63,702 nt of DNA from Candidatus Kapaibacterium sp. GTDB taxonomy: Bacteria > Bacteroidota > Ignavibacteria > Kapaibacteriales > UBA4661. Shown here one piece after another: positions 1 to 63,702 of this stretch. Each line of letters begins with the position of its first letter. Position 1 is the first letter of the stretch. The stretch spans positions 1-63,702 of the forward strand of contig JALONG010000022.1 in the NCBI GenBank assembly GCA_025455065.1, given 5' to 3'. The notes beneath the pieces were generated by a model. It did not search any database. It was not told where the DNA came from and worked only from the letters and a program-made list of their open reading frames with translations. The translations under genes were made by a program, and so were the position numbers.

Positions 1-57
1 AAACGACTGAGTTTACTCAAAACACTCCACAAGCACAATCCTCAAACCCAACCGTAG
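1..57 (+). pseudogene. recG: Probable 5' remnant of interrupted recG (partial)
   Basis: The first 18 codons of frame 1 read K-R-L-S-L-L-K-T-L and end at a TAG at 55-57, which lies inside the REP palindrome starting at 54. RecG proteins have a basic, helical stretch after the FGV-x-Q-R motif just before the PH-x-x-V-M-T/S-A-T-P motif, and this peptide would fit there. The RecG C-terminal half continues at about 675 in a different frame. I infer that this is the right-hand end of the native upstream recG sequence, cut by the RAYT/REP insertion. Frame 3 is also open through this stretch, so the assignment is not certain. Confidence 0.4.
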
Positions 58-80
58 CACAGACATTCTTGTCTGTGCAA
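54..80. repeat. Left REP palindrome of the RAYT element
   Basis: GTAGCACAGACA, loop TTCT, then TGTCTGTGC. The same palindrome recurs at 564-591 in inverted orientation and in the REPIN-like dimers near 38547 and 40523. It supplies the TAG that ends the frame 1 recG remnant and the TTG at 69. Confidence 0.85.
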
Positions 81-1559
81 AATTCACAAAAACCCCAAAA
101 CCCCGAACTCCAAAAAACACGAAGAAATCTTCCTCACTGGACTCTTGAAGGTTCAACATATTTTGTTACCTTTACTGCAAGGACAATCCTACAACCTGAA
201 GAACAAAACATGGTTTATCAGCATATTACACAAGGAGATAATCATTTTTACGAACTTCAGGCTCTAGTTATCATGCCTGACCACGTACATTTGGTTTTCC
301 GACTTCAAGACCATGCCTTAGATGAGGTAATGAAAGGTATGAAGGGCGTTACGGCAAATCTTATCAATCAGCATAGGAACACACGAGGGGAAAATATCTG
401 GCAAGAAGAGTCGTTCGATAGAATTATTCGTGATGAGCGCGAGTGGCAAGAAACCGTGAAGTATATTGAGGAAAACCCTCTAAAAATTGGCTTGGTTGGT
501 GCAAATGAGCAGTATCCGTATCTATGGACAATTGGCGCTGAGGCTGCACCTGCGGTGCAAAAGGTAGCACAGACAAGAATGTCTGTGCTACGGCAGGAAG
601 ATAAACAAATGCAGCCCCAAATATCTGCTTCGACGGATGCCGGTTCCACCCTACACACACCGCAAGAAATCTCCCCTCACATCATGGTCATGTCCGCAAC
701 GCCCATTCCGCGCACCTTGTCCATGACCGTCTATGGCGACCTTGATGTTTCCATCATTGACGAATTACCGAAAAACCGTAAGCCTATAAAAACGAAAGTG
801 GTATTTGAATCAAAACTGCCCATTGTGTTTCAATTTATTCGTGAGCAGATTGAAAAAGGGCATCAGGCGTATATCGTGTATCCGCTTGTAGAAAAATCCG
901 AAAAAGTCGAGGCAAAATCTGCCGTTGAACACTTTGAACACCTCCAACACGAGGTTTTTCCAGACCTCAAATTGGGTTTGCTGCATGGACAAATGTTCTG
1001 GTACGAAAAAGAAGATGCGATGAAAGCCTTCAAAAATAAGGAGTTTCAAATACTTGTCGCAACAACAGTTGTCGAGGTGGGTATTGATGTTCCCAACGCA
1101 ACGGTGATGCTGATTGAAAACGCCGAGCGCTTTGGGTTAGCGCAGTTACACCAACTTCGCGGGCGCGTCGGACGCGGTGCGGAGCAGTCGTACTGCCTCT
1201 TGGCAACCAAAGACCATTTCAAATTTCACATCGGCAAAAAAGAAACGGCTGCGGAAGAGCGCAAATCCAGCATTATCCGGCTCAAAACAATGCAAGACAC
1301 CAGCGACGGCTTCAAAATTGCCGAAGTAGATTTGAAATTACGCGGTCCCGGAGACTTTTTAGGAACACGTCAATCGGGCATCCCCGAATTTACCTTTGCC
1401 GATTTAATCACCGACGGCGATGTTATCAGCGTAGCGCGGCGCGAAGCATTTGCGCTGGTTGCAGACGACCCGCATTTGCGCAAAACCGAAAATGCAACAA
1501 TACGAACCGAGTTTCTTCGTCAAAACCAGAAAGACTTTACGCTCTTGGATGTTGCGTAA
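69..1559 (+). CDS. RAYT transposase fused in frame to RecG helicase C-terminal half
   Basis: Residues about 18-155 form a REP-associated tyrosine transposase (Y1/HUH family), with H-V-H at 72-74, W-Q-E at 111-113 and a likely catalytic Tyr at 132 before ENPLKIGLV. Residues about 200-496 are the C-terminal RecA-like half of ATP-dependent helicase RecG: motif III SATP at 209-212, motif V-like VATTVVEVGIDVPNA near 330 and motif VI QLRGRVGRG at 362-370. The linker at about 163-177 is a translated REP palindrome. The start drawn is a TTG inside the left REP; the frame is open back to the window edge, so the true start is unknown. RecG needs both RecA-like domains to remodel forks, so this chain alone should not be an active RecG. 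It may be a dead gene, a transposase with a tail, or half of a split protein. Confidence 0.8.
   Translation: MSVQNSQKPQNPELQKTRRNLPHWTLEGSTYFVTFTARTILQPEEQNMVYQHITQGDNHFYELQALVIMPDHVHLVFRLQDHALDEVMKGMKGVTANLINQHRNTRGENIWQEESFDRIIRDEREWQETVKYIEENPLKIGLVGANEQYPYLWTIGAEAAPAVQKVAQTRMSVLRQEDKQMQPQISASTDAGSTLHTPQEISPHIMVMSATPIPRTLSMTVYGDLDVSIIDELPKNRKPIKTKVVFESKLPIVFQFIREQIEKGHQAYIVYPLVEKSEKVEAKSAVEHFEHLQHEVFPDLKLGLLHGQMFWYEKEDAMKAFKNKEFQILVATTVVEVGIDVPNATVMLIENAERFGLAQLHQLRGRVGRGAEQSYCLLATKDHFKFHIGKKETAAEERKSSIIRLKTMQDTSDGFKIAEVDLKLRGPGDFLGTRQSGIPEFTFADLITDGDVISVARREAFALVADDPHLRKTENATIRTEFLRQNQKDFTLLDVA
564..591. repeat. Right REP palindrome of the RAYT element
   Basis: Perfect 12-bp stem GTAGCACAGACA / TGTCTGTGCTAC with loop AGAA, the reverse complement of the left loop TTCT. 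With the left copy it brackets the RAYT domain, giving an element of about 538 bp. It is translated as part of the linker between the transposase and RecG domains. Confidence 0.85.
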
Positions 1560-1735: not shown

Positions 1736-3509
1736 ATGGCAGATTTCCACAACAACGGACAGGCGCACTCACATCCCGAACACGCCGCTCACGCTCACGG
1801 TCATCATCACGAGCCTACGGCATGGGAGTTGCTGAAAAAGCTCTCGCATCTTGTTCAAGCAGAAAAGAAGGATATTTGGGTGCTGGTAACGTATTCGATT
1901 ATTTCGGGTTTGCTAAGTTTGGTGGTGCCGCTTTCGTCGCAAGCGATTGTGAATGCGGTACAACTTGGTGTTGTAACGCCGCAGCTCATCGTCTTATGCG
2001 TCGTTATAGGCTTGGGAATGTTGCTCATGGGAACGCCGATTGTTTGTTCGTGCAGCGATGGACGTAGCAACACGATTGCCCAAAATCCGCATGGATGCTC
2101 TTGCCGGCGAATACACCCCCGAACTTGTCAATCGGTTTTTTGACGTGATTAACATCCAAAAATCACTCAGTAAAATGATGCTCGACGGCTTGAGTGCGCT
2201 GCTTATAGCGCTTGTAGGCTTGGTCTTGTTGGCAATTTATCATCCCGTTTTTATCCTCTTTGATTTTGCCCTCTTTTTCTTTGCAGGCATTGTGATTTTT
2301 GTTTTGTCCTACAACGGCTTAAAAACAAGCATCAAAGAATCCAAGAAAAAATACGCGCTGGTGGAATGGCTTGAAGAAATAGCCCGTAGTCACACAAGTT
2401 TTAAGGTATATGCAACCGAACAGTTCATTATTCATCGAGTAGATCATATCACCGATGAATATGTGAAAGCACGGGCGCTGCATTTTGCCGTCCTAGCACG
2501 GCAACTCATCGGTTCTGCATTTTTTCGCGCTCTGGCAAGTGCAGGGATTCTGGGTTTGGGGGGCTTTTTGGTGATTGAACAAAGTATTTCCATTGGGCAA
2601 CTTGTCGCGGCAGAACTTGTGATTTTGTCTATTCTGAGTTCGCTCGAAAAACTTATCAGCCAATTCGATATTTACTACGATTTGCTCACCGCCGTTGATA
2701 AAGTCTCGCACATCACAGACAAACCACTTGAAGACCAAGACGGAGAACCCTTTGAACGGCGTTTTGGACCTGCTGCATTGCGCTTGCAAAACGTCTATTT
2801 TTCCTACCCCAACGGGCATCATGCGCTAAACGGCTTGTCGTTTGAAGTAGAGCCATGCTCGCACACAAGCATCGTCGGTGAAGCCGGTGCAGGCAAAACA
2901 ACGATTACCAGTTTACTCGCACGTCTTTACGAACCACAAAGTGGCGGAATGTTGCTCAACGGTCAGGAAATACGCCATTTGCGCATTGCCGACACCCGTG
3001 CTGCGATTGGCATCGTTACGACCAATTTAGAAATTTTCGATGGCTCGGTACGCGATAATATAACGCTCGGAAGAATATTTGACATTGAGGAAATTGAATG
3101 GGCGCTCAAAACCGCGAATTTGTATGAGGAGGTTATTCAGCTTCCCGACGGCTTAAATACAGAGATTTTGGCAACAGGGGTAAATTTTTCGGAGAGTATT
3201 CTCTGCCGCATTATGATTGCCCGCGCTATCATTGCCCGTCCGCAACTGCTGGTCATTGACGAAGCGTTGCACACGCTCGACCAAGCACGAAAGCTCCAAA
3301 TCCTTGACCAAATATACGCTTGCGGCAATTGGACGATTTTGGATATTTCCAATGACATCGAAAATATCCGCCGTGCAGATAATGTGATTGTTCTCGCCGA
3401 CGGTGTTGCTGTGGAACGCGGCACAGTCAGTGAACTTTCTGCGAATCCTGAAAGCCTCTTCTCCCGCTTATTCCCTATGCTTTCAGAGGATATGCGCTCG
3501 GCGGCGTAA
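1736..3509 (+). pseudogene. ABC exporter (membrane + ATPase domains), frameshifted and degenerate
   Basis: A His-rich N-terminus and first membrane segment read in frame 2 from ATG 1736 to about 2030. The rest (membrane domain and ATPase) reads in frame 3 from about 2028 to 3509. At the junction L-G-M-L-L-M-G is followed at once by E-R-R-L-F-V-R-A-A-M-D. Relatives as I remember them have about 20 more residues here, so a deletion may have caused the shift. The ATPase has Walker A GEAGAGKTT and Walker B LLVIDEA. The signature region reads F-S-E-S-I-L-C-R-I instead of LSGGQ, and the H-loop position has Asn (DISND). In this FCB exporter family the signature is often weak, so activity cannot be excluded if the frameshift is a sequencing error. 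Confidence 0.7.
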
Positions 3510-43554: not shown

Positions 43555-43632
43555 GTGGCACAGGCATTTTTGCCTGTGCGAATTGCCTTACAACAGCATC
43601 AATACTCGCACAGGCAAAAATGCCTGTGCCAC
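43555..43632. repeat. REPIN-like dimer, GTGGCACAGGCA subtype
   Basis: Two inverted palindromes GTGGCACAGGCA-TTTT-TGCCTGTGC and GCACAGGCA-AAAA-TGCCTGTGCCAC, 78 bp overall. They match the GTAGCACAGACA REP except for A-to-G changes balanced in the opposite arm, so this is a subtype. Confidence 0.85.
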
Positions 43633-50153: not shown

Positions 50154-52664
50154 TTACCACTTCACCGAAAACGCTTCATCACTTAGTGCGAAGGTAAGCG
50201 TTTTTGCCTGTAAACGCTGTGCGCTGCCTGCTTGCGCTCCAAGCGGGTCGTAGCCTGCGCTTGGCTTCAAAAGCGGCACTGCGTCATTCGTCAAAGCTAC
50301 TTTTTTACCCGCAACCGTGATTTCTTGCGGTAGCCCGTCAAATCCGTGCAGCACCAAACGCACCTGCTTGAATTTGGAAGAACGCTTGCCGTCGGGCTTT
50401 GCGAAACGCAAGGTCTTCTGAGCCGCATCATAGCTTAATGTTCGCTTGTAAAAATCACCTTTTTCGTACAAATACGTCTCGCCGTCGTCTTCGTAATACA
50501 CAAAGTCTGAGCCTTGTTTTCCGGCGTACAGATGAACGGTCAAAACGTCGCTCGGCTGTTCTTTGGTGGACTGTACGACGGACTGCATAACCAGCATTTG
50601 CCCACCTTTGGCAAAAACAGGCAAGCGTTCAAGCGGGGTTTCGACGACGATTGTTTGTTTACCCGCATATTTGCTATCGCTGTGAATATCGTACCATTCG
50701 CCTTCGGGTAGATACACTTTTGCAAAGTCTTTATTGCTCCGAACAGGCGCAATCATCAGGCTTTGACCAAACATATACTGCGATTCAAAAGCACGGTCGT
50801 AAATGTTCCCATCAAACGCATAATTCAACGCCAGTGAACGTGCCACAGGCAAGCCTGTTTGTGCGGCTTCGTGGAAGGCGGAATACAAGTACGGAAGCAG
50901 TTTGTAGCGGAGTTCGATGTAGTTTTTGCAAATTTCCTCAACATCTTCGCCAAACGACCAAGGGTCTTGTTCTTTGGTGTAAACAGCAGCGTGGGTGCGG
51001 AAAAACGGCGTAAATGCGCCAACGCTTATCCAACGGGCAAAAAGTTCGCGTGAACCGTTACCGTTGAAACCGCCAATATCCACGCCCGCAAACGGTACAC
51101 CTGCTAATCCGAGATTGGCGACAAGTTGCGCACCCAGCATCAAATGGTCATCCGACGAGGTATTATCACCCGTCCAGACCGCAGAATAACGCTGCACACC
51201 GGAATAAAAGGCGCGAGTGAGGTTAAACGGGCGTTTGCCGCCATTGGGATTGAGCGCCGCGAGATGCTTTTTTGAGCCTTCAAACGTTGCACGTGCCATT
51301 TGCAAACCATAGACGTTATGCGCCTTCTTGTGGGTTGCTTTGTTGCCGTCGAAATCAAATTCTACCATATCGGGAAAACGGCTTCCCCACGTTGCCGGTT
51401 CGTTCATATCCGTCCAAAAGCCGTCCAAACCGTCTTCTACAAGCGGTTTCAGCTTATCGCCCCACCACAAACGCGCAGATTCTTTCGTGAAATCAGGGAA
51501 ATGACACCAGCCGGGCCAAACCTCGCTTGTATGGTATGTTCCGTCGGGGTACTTCGCAAAAACGTCCTTTTGTACGCCGTCGTCGTAGCCGTCGTAGCCT
51601 TTTTCCACTTTAATTCCCGGGTCGGTAATTGCCACCGTGCGAAAGCCCATGGTTTCAAGGTCGGCAAGCATTTTTTTCGGATTGGAAAAGCGCTCAGGAT
51701 GCCACGTAAAGACTTTGTACGCATCCATGTAGTGAATGTCGAACCACAGCACATCAGCCGGGATCTGCTTTTCGCGGAAGGTGCGGGCAACGGTCATCAC
51801 TTCTTTGTCGGGGAAATAGCTGTAACGGCATTGGTGATAGCCCAACGACCACAACGGCGGCATTTCCATGCGCCCCGTCAGCCACGTGTAATCCTGCACA
51901 ATTTCCGCCACCGTCGGGCGGTAAATAAGATAATAATTCATCTCGCCGCCTTCCACCGTAAAGGCAGAGAAACGCCGATTTGATGCGCCGAAGTTGAAAT
52001 GGGATTTGTAGCTGTTATCCAAAAACACGCCGTAGGCAAGATTTTTTCCTGCTGAGGATGAACCTGATGTGTGCAAACCCATGTAAAACGGCGTTGTGCC
52101 ATAAAGCGGGTCTGAGCCTGGTCCGTAGCCGAAAGCATCGGTATTCCAATTCGTGTAGCCGTTGCCGAGTTTGTTCAAACCGCCTTTTTCGCCAAGCCCG
52201 ATAAAACGCTCATTCGGCAGTAAGCGTTTGTAGGTGGTGGTTTCACCGCCCATCCACGCCGTGCCAAAAGCGAGTTCGTCTTCGTTCAAGAGTTCACCTT
52301 GTTTGGTGAACAGTTGAATACGCACGGGATTTTTCTTCAGCACAAGTTTGATTTCATCGGTCAAAAGCGTGATTGCTTCGCCGTTTTCGGTTACCGTAAA
52401 TTTCGTTTTTTGTGGCTTCGCAATAACGGCAAAGGAATGGTCATCCCATTGCGCCACGCCATTCAAAAGCCTTGCAACCCGCACCCGCACTATTGTTGGC
52501 GAATAAACCACAATGCGCACGTGTGCTTCTGCGGTTTTGAGAAGCAGACCTTGTTCGTCGGCGCTCCAATCGGTGAGTTTGGAAAGGGATTGTTGGAGGT
52601 TTTGAGCGGACATACCGATTGCGACAAAAAACAGTAGAAAAAGAGTTATGATGCGGTGTTGCAT
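50154..52664 (-). CDS. Secreted GH31 alpha-glucosidase
   Basis: 836 residues with a signal peptide (1-19). GH31 glycosidases hydrolyse alpha-glucosidic or related bonds. The nucleophile is Asp419 in F-W-T-D-M-N-E-P and the acid/base is Asp500 in V-W-T-G-D-N; N-terminal beta-sandwich and C-terminal beta domains are present. It is the longer, periplasmic-type member. The gene follows the GT-C-like gene by 32 bases on the same strand, which suggests shared transcription. Confidence 0.92.
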   Translation of the reverse strand: MQHRIITLFLLFFVAIGMSAQNLQQSLSKLTDWSADEQGLLLKTAEAHVRIVVYSPTIVRVRVARLLNGVAQWDDHSFAVIAKPQKTKFTVTENGEAITLLTDEIKLVLKKNPVRIQLFTKQGELLNEDELAFGTAWMGGETTTYKRLLPNERFIGLGEKGGLNKLGNGYTNWNTDAFGYGPGSDPLYGTTPFYMGLHTSGSSSAGKNLAYGVFLDNSYKSHFNFGASNRRFSAFTVEGGEMNYYLIYRPTVAEIVQDYTWLTGRMEMPPLWSLGYHQCRYSYFPDKEVMTVARTFREKQIPADVLWFDIHYMDAYKVFTWHPERFSNPKKMLADLETMGFRTVAITDPGIKVEKGYDGYDDGVQKDVFAKYPDGTYHTSEVWPGWCHFPDFTKESARLWWGDKLKPLVEDGLDGFWTDMNEPATWGSRFPDMVEFDFDGNKATHKKAHNVYGLQMARATFEGSKKHLAALNPNGGKRPFNLTRAFYSGVQRYSAVWTGDNTSSDDHLMLGAQLVANLGLAGVPFAGVDIGGFNGNGSRELFARWISVGAFTPFFRTHAAVYTKEQDPWSFGEDVEEICKNYIELRYKLLPYLYSAFHEAAQTGLPVARSLALNYAFDGNIYDRAFESQYMFGQSLMIAPVRSNKDFAKVYLPEGEWYDIHSDSKYAGKQTIVVETPLERLPVFAKGGQMLVMQSVVQSTKEQPSDVLTVHLYAGKQGSDFVYYEDDGETYLYEKGDFYKRTLSYDAAQKTLRFAKPDGKRSSKFKQVRLVLHGFDGLPQEITVAGKKVALTNDAVPLLKPSAGYDPLGAQAGSAQRLQAKTLTFALSDEAFSVKW

Positions 52665-63602: not shown

Positions 63603-63702
63603 AACCAATGTACCAATGACCAATGTACCAATGACCAATGTACCAATGACCAATGTACCAATGACCAATGTACCAATGACCAATGTACCAATGACCAATG
63701 TA
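63603..63702. repeat. 15-bp tandem repeat ACCAATGTACCAATG
   Basis: About 6.6 copies of the unit ACCAATGTACCAATG run to the window edge and beyond. The motif matches the shorter repeat at the xdhC start. Confidence 0.92.

Follow-up and report, generated by a model that had tools for sequence, protein, structure and literature searches.

The only recG gene found in the draft genome of Candidatus Kapaibacterium sp. (G000; 5.6 Mb in 131 contigs, 99.5% complete) carries a complete REP–RAYT–REP unit, or REPtron, in frame within its coding sequence, i.e., a REP-associated tyrosine transposase (RAYT) together with its inverted REPs. The reading preferred here, with a probability of about 0.7, is that RecG still works and carries this RAYT as a passenger that is translated and not spliced out. 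The window, by which is meant the whole stretch of 63,702 nucleotides that was analyzed, is an entire contig (C58) of this genome, and recG is divided between its first bases and the end of a second contig.

In a RecG profile search of the genome, the start of C58 was found to carry the C-terminal half of RecG (profile positions 383–629), with the N-terminal half (2–385) at the very end of contig C20. Read on the reverse strand, C20 closes with 46 bases that recur without a mismatch at the beginning of C58, and this 46-mer is present in the genome solely at these two ends when up to 2 mismatches are allowed. Joining the contigs gives a single stop-free recG frame of 1031 codons, in which the order of parts is RecG N-half, REP, spacer, REP, complete RAYT, inverted REP, and RecG C-half. 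The left junction depends on the 46-bp overlap, and the true copy number of the tandem REP and spacer may differ from that in the joined sequence; the repeated REP may also be what caused the contig to break here. The features of the locus that lie in the window are given below.

1–46, + strand: exact overlap with the end of C20, which holds the RecG N-half in the same frame (sequence comparison)
1–53, + strand: in-frame spacer, preceded on C20 by a first copy of the left REP (joined sequence)
54–78, + strand: left REP with GTAG foot and in-frame peptide VAQTFLSV; the TAG at 55–57 is out of frame
114–545, + strand: RAYT core, with no ATG upstream of the conserved RRNLPHW motif
282–290, + strand: HUH motif (His-Val-His), both histidines invariant
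462–464, + strand: presumed catalytic tyrosine of the YIxxNP motif, invariant
564–591, + strand: right REP, inverted relative to the left REP, with double foot GTAG...CTAC and in-frame peptide QTRMSV
592–662, + strand: variable in-frame linker
663–1559, + strand: RecG C-terminal half, from motif III (693–716) on to motif VI and RecG domain 3; stop codon at 1557–1559

The initial annotation had recognized two inverted REPs bracketing a RAYT, and a frame that reads across the right REP into the RecG C-half; both observations stand, the frame (3–1559) running without a stop from the first bases of the window to its terminal codon. Its further reading, of a RAYT set into recG, holds for the presence of the RAYT and its REPs inside the gene, in a position that is frame-preserving and unusual, and fails for the proposal that recG was stopped and the RAYT supplied a new upstream frame. 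The TAG of the left REP, at which the upstream frame had been supposed to end, lies in another frame, and the sequence to the left of position 1 that the annotation had wanted found is the RecG N-half on C20, in frame with the RAYT, such that the insertion leaves recG open over all 1031 codons. Instead of a two-part fusion of transposase and RecG C-half, the encoded protein would be a complete RecG, one loop of which holds a RAYT domain. An intact recG elsewhere, which had been named as a possible objection, was not found in this 99.5% complete genome. The strongest match to the RecG profile, a 1181-codon frame on contig C97 that is 35% identical to the RecG of the window, is taken for Mfd from its length and likeness, and in each of two related genomes with the same arrangement (G006 and G007) the only match besides recG is a frame of 1177 or 1215 codons, likewise taken for Mfd. 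To judge from the sequence, the G000 locus is real and is more than a two-part fusion, namely a REPtron in frame inside the only recG found.

The insertion site lies between residues 513 and 519 of Thermotoga maritima RecG (1gm5), between the stretches of helicase motifs II and III. The loop concerned, measured from DEQHRF to ATPIPR and readable in 30 of 31 RecG loci, is 21–85 amino acids long in 28 other RecGs and 245 and 273 amino acids long where a RAYT is present. In G005 (L043), the same loop holds a different in-frame palindromic element (peptide PTLLPEGEG...PSGRGLGEG), and the loop is therefore a repeated landing place. All nine helicase signature patterns were found in each of the nine genus and family sequences checked, that of G000 included, and the wedge, helicase motifs, and domain 3 are recognizable by Pfam in L040 and L044 (the loci of G007 and G006) and by motif patterns in G000. 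The two halves of the G000 protein score 341.3 and 365.6 bits against TIGR00643, each below the cut-off of 659.4, with a sum above it. Comparison of sister pairs that differ in the insert indicates that RecG is under strong constraint in them: the RecGs of G001 and G007 are 98.0% identical (dN 0.009, dS 0.60) and those of G005 and G006 95.5% identical (dN 0.024, dS 0.53), for which the insert-free pair G002 and G004 provides a reference (dN 0.006, dS 0.26). An AlphaFold model of the L040 fusion (980 residues, 23 rows) has a mean pLDDT of 73 and a pTM of 0.59, with values of about 80–95 over most of the host, about 57–69 over the RAYT part, and low values in the linkers; its best PDB match as a whole is 1gm5 (E 6e-42, TM 0.42/0.52).

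The inserted domain is a RAYT by several measures. That of G000 scores 92.3 bits against the family profile NF047646 (cut-off 80) and also matches Pfam Y1_Tnp, which bears out the initial identification, and its counterparts in G006 and G007 score slightly below the cut-off (78.3 and 79.3 bits). The HUH motif and the single tyrosine followed by NP that are expected of RAYT/TnpAREP proteins are present, and both HUH histidines, the tyrosine, the asparagine, and the proline are invariant in the three recG copies. Modeled alone, the domain reaches a pLDDT of 84 and a pTM of 0.80, and the PDB entry that it matches best is 4er8, in which a RAYT is bound to a REP hairpin (E 7.8e-7, TM 0.69/0.61). 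The recG RAYT is single copy in G000, the next match being 28% identical; elsewhere the genome has one RAYT-family gene that exceeds the cut-off (C96, 104.7 bits) and another that falls short. Mutual identities of the three recG RAYTs are about 47–54%. In a drift simulation of 500 runs per pair, in which only stop codons were forbidden and third-position divergence was matched, mean identities were 10, 14, and 16% (maximum 26%), compared with 47, 53, and 53% observed. The RAYT protein was therefore under selection, although this constraint may in part be older than its residence in recG.

A gene of its own, with its own start codon, is not what the recG RAYT resembles, since its frame is continuous with RecG and none of the three recG copies has an ATG ahead of the conserved core; each of them does have in-frame TTG or GTG codons 4–31 codons before that core. 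When every row with a legible N-terminal core is counted, two of seven embedded RAYTs have an ATG in the 40 codons preceding the core, as against 21 of 22 stand-alone ones. At E 0.001, Pfam gave no match to a self-splicing domain in L040 or L044.

The distribution of the arrangement was followed with a RecG C-half search of 41 genomes (G000 and 40 relatives), seven of which, besides G000 itself, belong to its genus. G007 (997 codons) and G006 (1060 codons) have the same architecture at the same RecG loop, each within one contig, and their frames likewise hold a VAQTFLSV REP peptide, a RAYT, and an inverted QTRMSV REP peptide. By frame length and loop sequence, G007 corresponds to Ignavibacteria MAG Clear-D13 (L040) and G006 to Candidatus Kapaibacterium MAG PH2015_12D_48_15 (L044). 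RAYT-free loops of 35–49 amino acids are found in G001, G002, G003, and G004 and in the family member G009, and the closest relatives of G006 and G007 are without the insert, sister RecGs being 95–98% identical. Outside the genus, no recG with a RAYT was seen among the matches listed from 391 genomes of the class, 18 of which, with split or odd matches, were searched again and five frames read. The recG frame of G012 is extended upstream, and that of G271 is fused with its neighbor and contains unresolved bases; neither has a RAYT. A Ser/Gly/Thr-rich in-frame insert, also without a RAYT, occurs at another site in the RecG of G368 (L144).

How the RAYT came to be shared by three species is less straightforward. 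A single entry is favored by the tree, in which the three recG RAYTs form one clade (support 100/88). A search of G000–G006 with the G007 RAYT gave strong matches only at the recG loci of G000 and G006 (54%), with one weak match at C96 of G000 (24%). RAYT identity does not track that of the hosts, being 53% for both G000–G007 and G006–G007 where the hosts are 88% and 78% identical. Changed synonymous sites, RAYT versus host, amount to 0.83/0.65 for G000–G006, 0.76/0.65 for G000–G007, and 0.71/0.68 for G006–G007, both being near saturation. These identities and synonymous changes would speak against simple co-inheritance with recG. Reasoned by hand, one gain with three losses requires four steps and three gains require three.

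REPs of the same kind are abundant in the genome, and inverted copies flank the recG RAYT in G006 and G007 as well as in G000. In the window, the REP pattern has 9 matches with up to 3 mismatches, compared with 0.01 expected from shuffles. Two pairs, 38550/38650 and 40526/40625, are located between frames of at least 120 codons, as is a pair at 43558/43608, the second member of which overlaps a frame start by about 10 bases; the ninth match is at 50843. Genome counts with up to 2 mismatches are 265 in G000, 520 in G006, and 97 in G007, all with a recG RAYT, and 209 in G001, 715 in G005, 6 in G002, 0 in G003, 3 in G004, and 1 in G009, all without one; G008 has 0. The expectation that REP number follows the recG RAYT thus failed in part. 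The link between RAYT and REPs is indirect because REPs are abundant also in G001 and G005, which may have lost a recG RAYT. With NF047646, the genus yielded nine RAYT-family matches besides those in recG, of which one in G000 lies above the cut-off; in the five of these nine that were checked, no such REP occurs within up to 1.5 kb on each side.

Two further features of the window were noted. The ABC transporter gene that follows recG (1736–3509) is split by a frameshift near 2030–2060, where relatives such as L040 and L042 have one frame, and is either a pseudogene or an assembly error. At the end of the window, positions 63604–63702 form a perfect 15-bp tandem repeat of 6.6 copies.

RAYT-like domains are also embedded in other enzymes. 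Host-blind searches of 41, 391, and 395 genomes, in overlapping sets, gave, among the matches listed, at least 15 distinct RAYT frames of at least 400 codons, 14 of which are host enzymes. These comprise RecG (three, in G000, G006, and G007, the G000 frame being listed at 518 codons as cut by the contig end), DUF1156/HmaB-type methylases (four: G120, G012, and G661 by Pfam, and G578 by likeness to G661), HsdR or parts of it (three: G617, G504, and G587), type IIG/Eco57I enzymes (three: G343, G027, and G596), and an N6/N4 methylase matching PglXI (G632). The 11 cases outside RecG are thus, among the matches listed, all restriction or DNA-methylation enzymes. The frames of G343, G617, and G587 are truncated by a contig end, which leaves only one flank of the insertion visible. 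A single genus (g198: G632, G587, G661, G617, G504, and G578) accounts for six of the 11, so that independent events number fewer than 14. Long host frames make up nine of the 120 rows listed from the 395-genome search (hand count), and the seven phylum cases from that search were identified by a custom profile (A1) rather than by NF047646. Two of the domains are atypical: that of G027 is a weak family member (35 bits against the cut-off of 80) with no NP after the tyrosine, and that of G596 has a histidine in the expected tyrosine position and seems to have lost the tyrosine. The remaining long frame, of 402 codons in G039 (L177, G039:C17), was rejected as a host fusion as it is swollen by peptide repeats, a long NANDNVQL-like run lying between its HUH and Tyr motifs.

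In a test of ten embedded cases, each against eight mononucleotide shuffles, flanking inverted repeats were clearly above the shuffles in six (G120, G661, G578, G632, G007, and G006), borderline in G504 and G596, and within them in G012 and G027. A RAYT tree of 80 rows and 139 columns, 13 of the rows embedded and G027 left out, has many unresolved forks; on it the label embedded or alone changes 5 times, compared with 12.3 in shuffles, and seven embedded RAYTs (three HsdR, three HmaB-type, and one IIG) form a clade without stand-alone members (96/96). As a rough control for host bias, 190 flanking frames of stand-alone RAYTs were taken, 120 of the longer ones submitted to Pfam, and the 25 commonest families considered; these mechanically called frames, some of them fragments, mostly belong to other kinds (ResIII 4, DEAD 3, and N6_Mtase 1–2 of 120). 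That all embedding hosts seem to act on DNA is striking, if from a small sample, and agrees with the intragenic REPs in DNA synthesis and repair genes described in the available text of PMC3733652. Several other associations were seen in passing. The HsdR frames of G617 and G504 (L211 and L212) have REP-like peptides (GGQECPPS and RAGFPTRH, by eye) at more than one site besides the RAYT. In L174 (G020:C22), the start of a RAYT of the same wider clade overlaps the stop of an Eco57I-like methylase frame (by eye) by a few bases, the two being coupled and not fused. Viral contigs gave two weak RAYT matches.

On the preferred reading, the REPtron would have inserted in frame in the loop between helicase motifs II and III, and the host RecG would have remained functional despite it. 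The RAYT would then be made as a domain of RecG, from the recG promoter and start codon. With its HUH and tyrosine residues kept, it most likely still cuts and joins the single-stranded GTAGCACAGACA REP, and therefore is, or was, the source of the 265 REPs of G000. The host gene would protect the element, as recG itself would be lost through any frameshift, stop, or sloppy deletion. A broader proposal, put forward tentatively and at rather less than even odds, is that some RAYT lineages live mainly in host genes, passing between and persisting in DNA-processing enzymes (RecG, HsdR, type IIG enzymes, and HmaB-type methylases). They would be translated with the host and stay unspliced, with no start codon of their own, which would make them the splice-free equivalent of inteins; in RecG, the tether may aim the transposase at forks.

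Other explanations of the recG locus differ in what they make of the same frame. It is unlikely that the RAYT is a nested gene, translated separately, whether also or only, with a TTG or GTG within or close to the left REP as its start: such codons do lie shortly before the core in all three copies, but an ATG is absent from every one of them, in contrast to the stand-alone RAYTs, and the RecG frame continues through the RAYT regardless. Very little probability attaches to a damaged recG, with RecG inactivated by the insert and the frame still open only by recent accident. The size of the insert and its position between two ATPase motifs would suit such damage, and RecG is dispensable in many bacteria; against it, the frame is stop-free in three species, the helicase patterns are kept, dN/dS is not raised, and the loop tolerates another in-frame insert in the palindrome of G005. 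A chimera of assembly or binning is scarcely credible. The recG halves of G000 do lie on two contigs, but their overlap is exact and unique in the genome, and an ABC transporter gene downstream of recG is common to all six genus loci examined, although the upstream neighbor of the G000 recG (SecD-like by eye) is present in only one of eight. As an account of the arrangement as such, the assembly error that the initial annotation had raised against itself can be dismissed, since in each of two other MAGs a single contig holds the whole arrangement.

The explanation with the same anatomy as the passenger reading is co-option, according to which the RAYT has become a working part of RecG, the tether bringing a nuclease for single-stranded REPs to stalled forks, where RecG acts and Y1 transposases meet single-stranded DNA. 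It is consistent with one RAYT clade at one site in three species even though their RecGs have diverged to 78–88% identity, with a RAYT constraint above that of the drift simulation, and with the use of the lagging-strand template by Y1 transposases, which may be aimed by fork proteins, according to the available text of PMC6006769. Sister species with RecGs 95–98% identical do without the RAYT, so it is dispensable, and the same wider RAYT-like group occurs in methylases and HsdR, where a fork role is not obvious. Co-option is judged unlikely, and the passenger reading is retained.

The recG unit corresponds in most respects to the known RAYT/TnpAREP proteins and REPtrons, sharing their HUH and Y...NP core, the 4er8 fold, flanking inverted GTAG REPs, a single copy of its kind, and a genome-wide REP family. 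In the available text of PMC6006769, its REP resembles the "double foot" type described for RAYT subclass 2.4, and its DHVH, WQ, and YIxxNP motifs look nearest to subclass 2.7 of the table there, a likeness by motif only. The same text records in-frame REPs within subclass 2.4 RAYT genes, notes loops as tolerant sites, and states that unexpectedly long RAYT proteins were discarded as fusions or annotation errors; the present case suggests that long RAYTs so dismissed can be real. RAYTs have been described as genes of their own with mostly intergenic REPs, whereas the recG RAYT lies inside RecG without its own ATG. Searches of the open-licence literature turned up no description of an in-frame RAYT within RecG or a restriction enzyme.

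In-frame palindromes in coding regions, many of them in replication and repair genes, are shared with the intragenic REPs and Rickettsia palindromic elements of PMC3733652, where REPs in frame inside uvrA, recBCD, dnaE2, and other genes are described. As far as the available text of that paper goes, those inserts encode only REP sequence (20 to 82 amino acids), with no RAYT in a host gene and no RecG named, whereas the recG insert has a whole RAYT. Its Y1 transposase is related to that of IS200, but the recG RAYT is single copy in G000, unlike the several near-identical copies of IS200/IS605 elements. IStrons, as presented in the available text of PMC4227781, likewise make an insertion harmless, as the recG insert, with its open frame, would be.

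According to the available text of PMC8266576, TnpAREP genes are mostly single copy and show no evidence of mobility, whereas the presence of the recG RAYT differs between sister species. Several species of one genus have retained a transposase gene within a repair helicase that apparently still works, which connects two findings reported separately: the in-frame REPs of repair genes and the supposed immobility of RAYT genes. Inteins are nuclease-type domains carried in frame in host enzymes. The recG RAYT shares this property and differs in that the Pfam matches of L040 and L044 include no splicing domain, and the locus offers a testable system for the survival of a mobile-element gene inside an enzyme without splicing.
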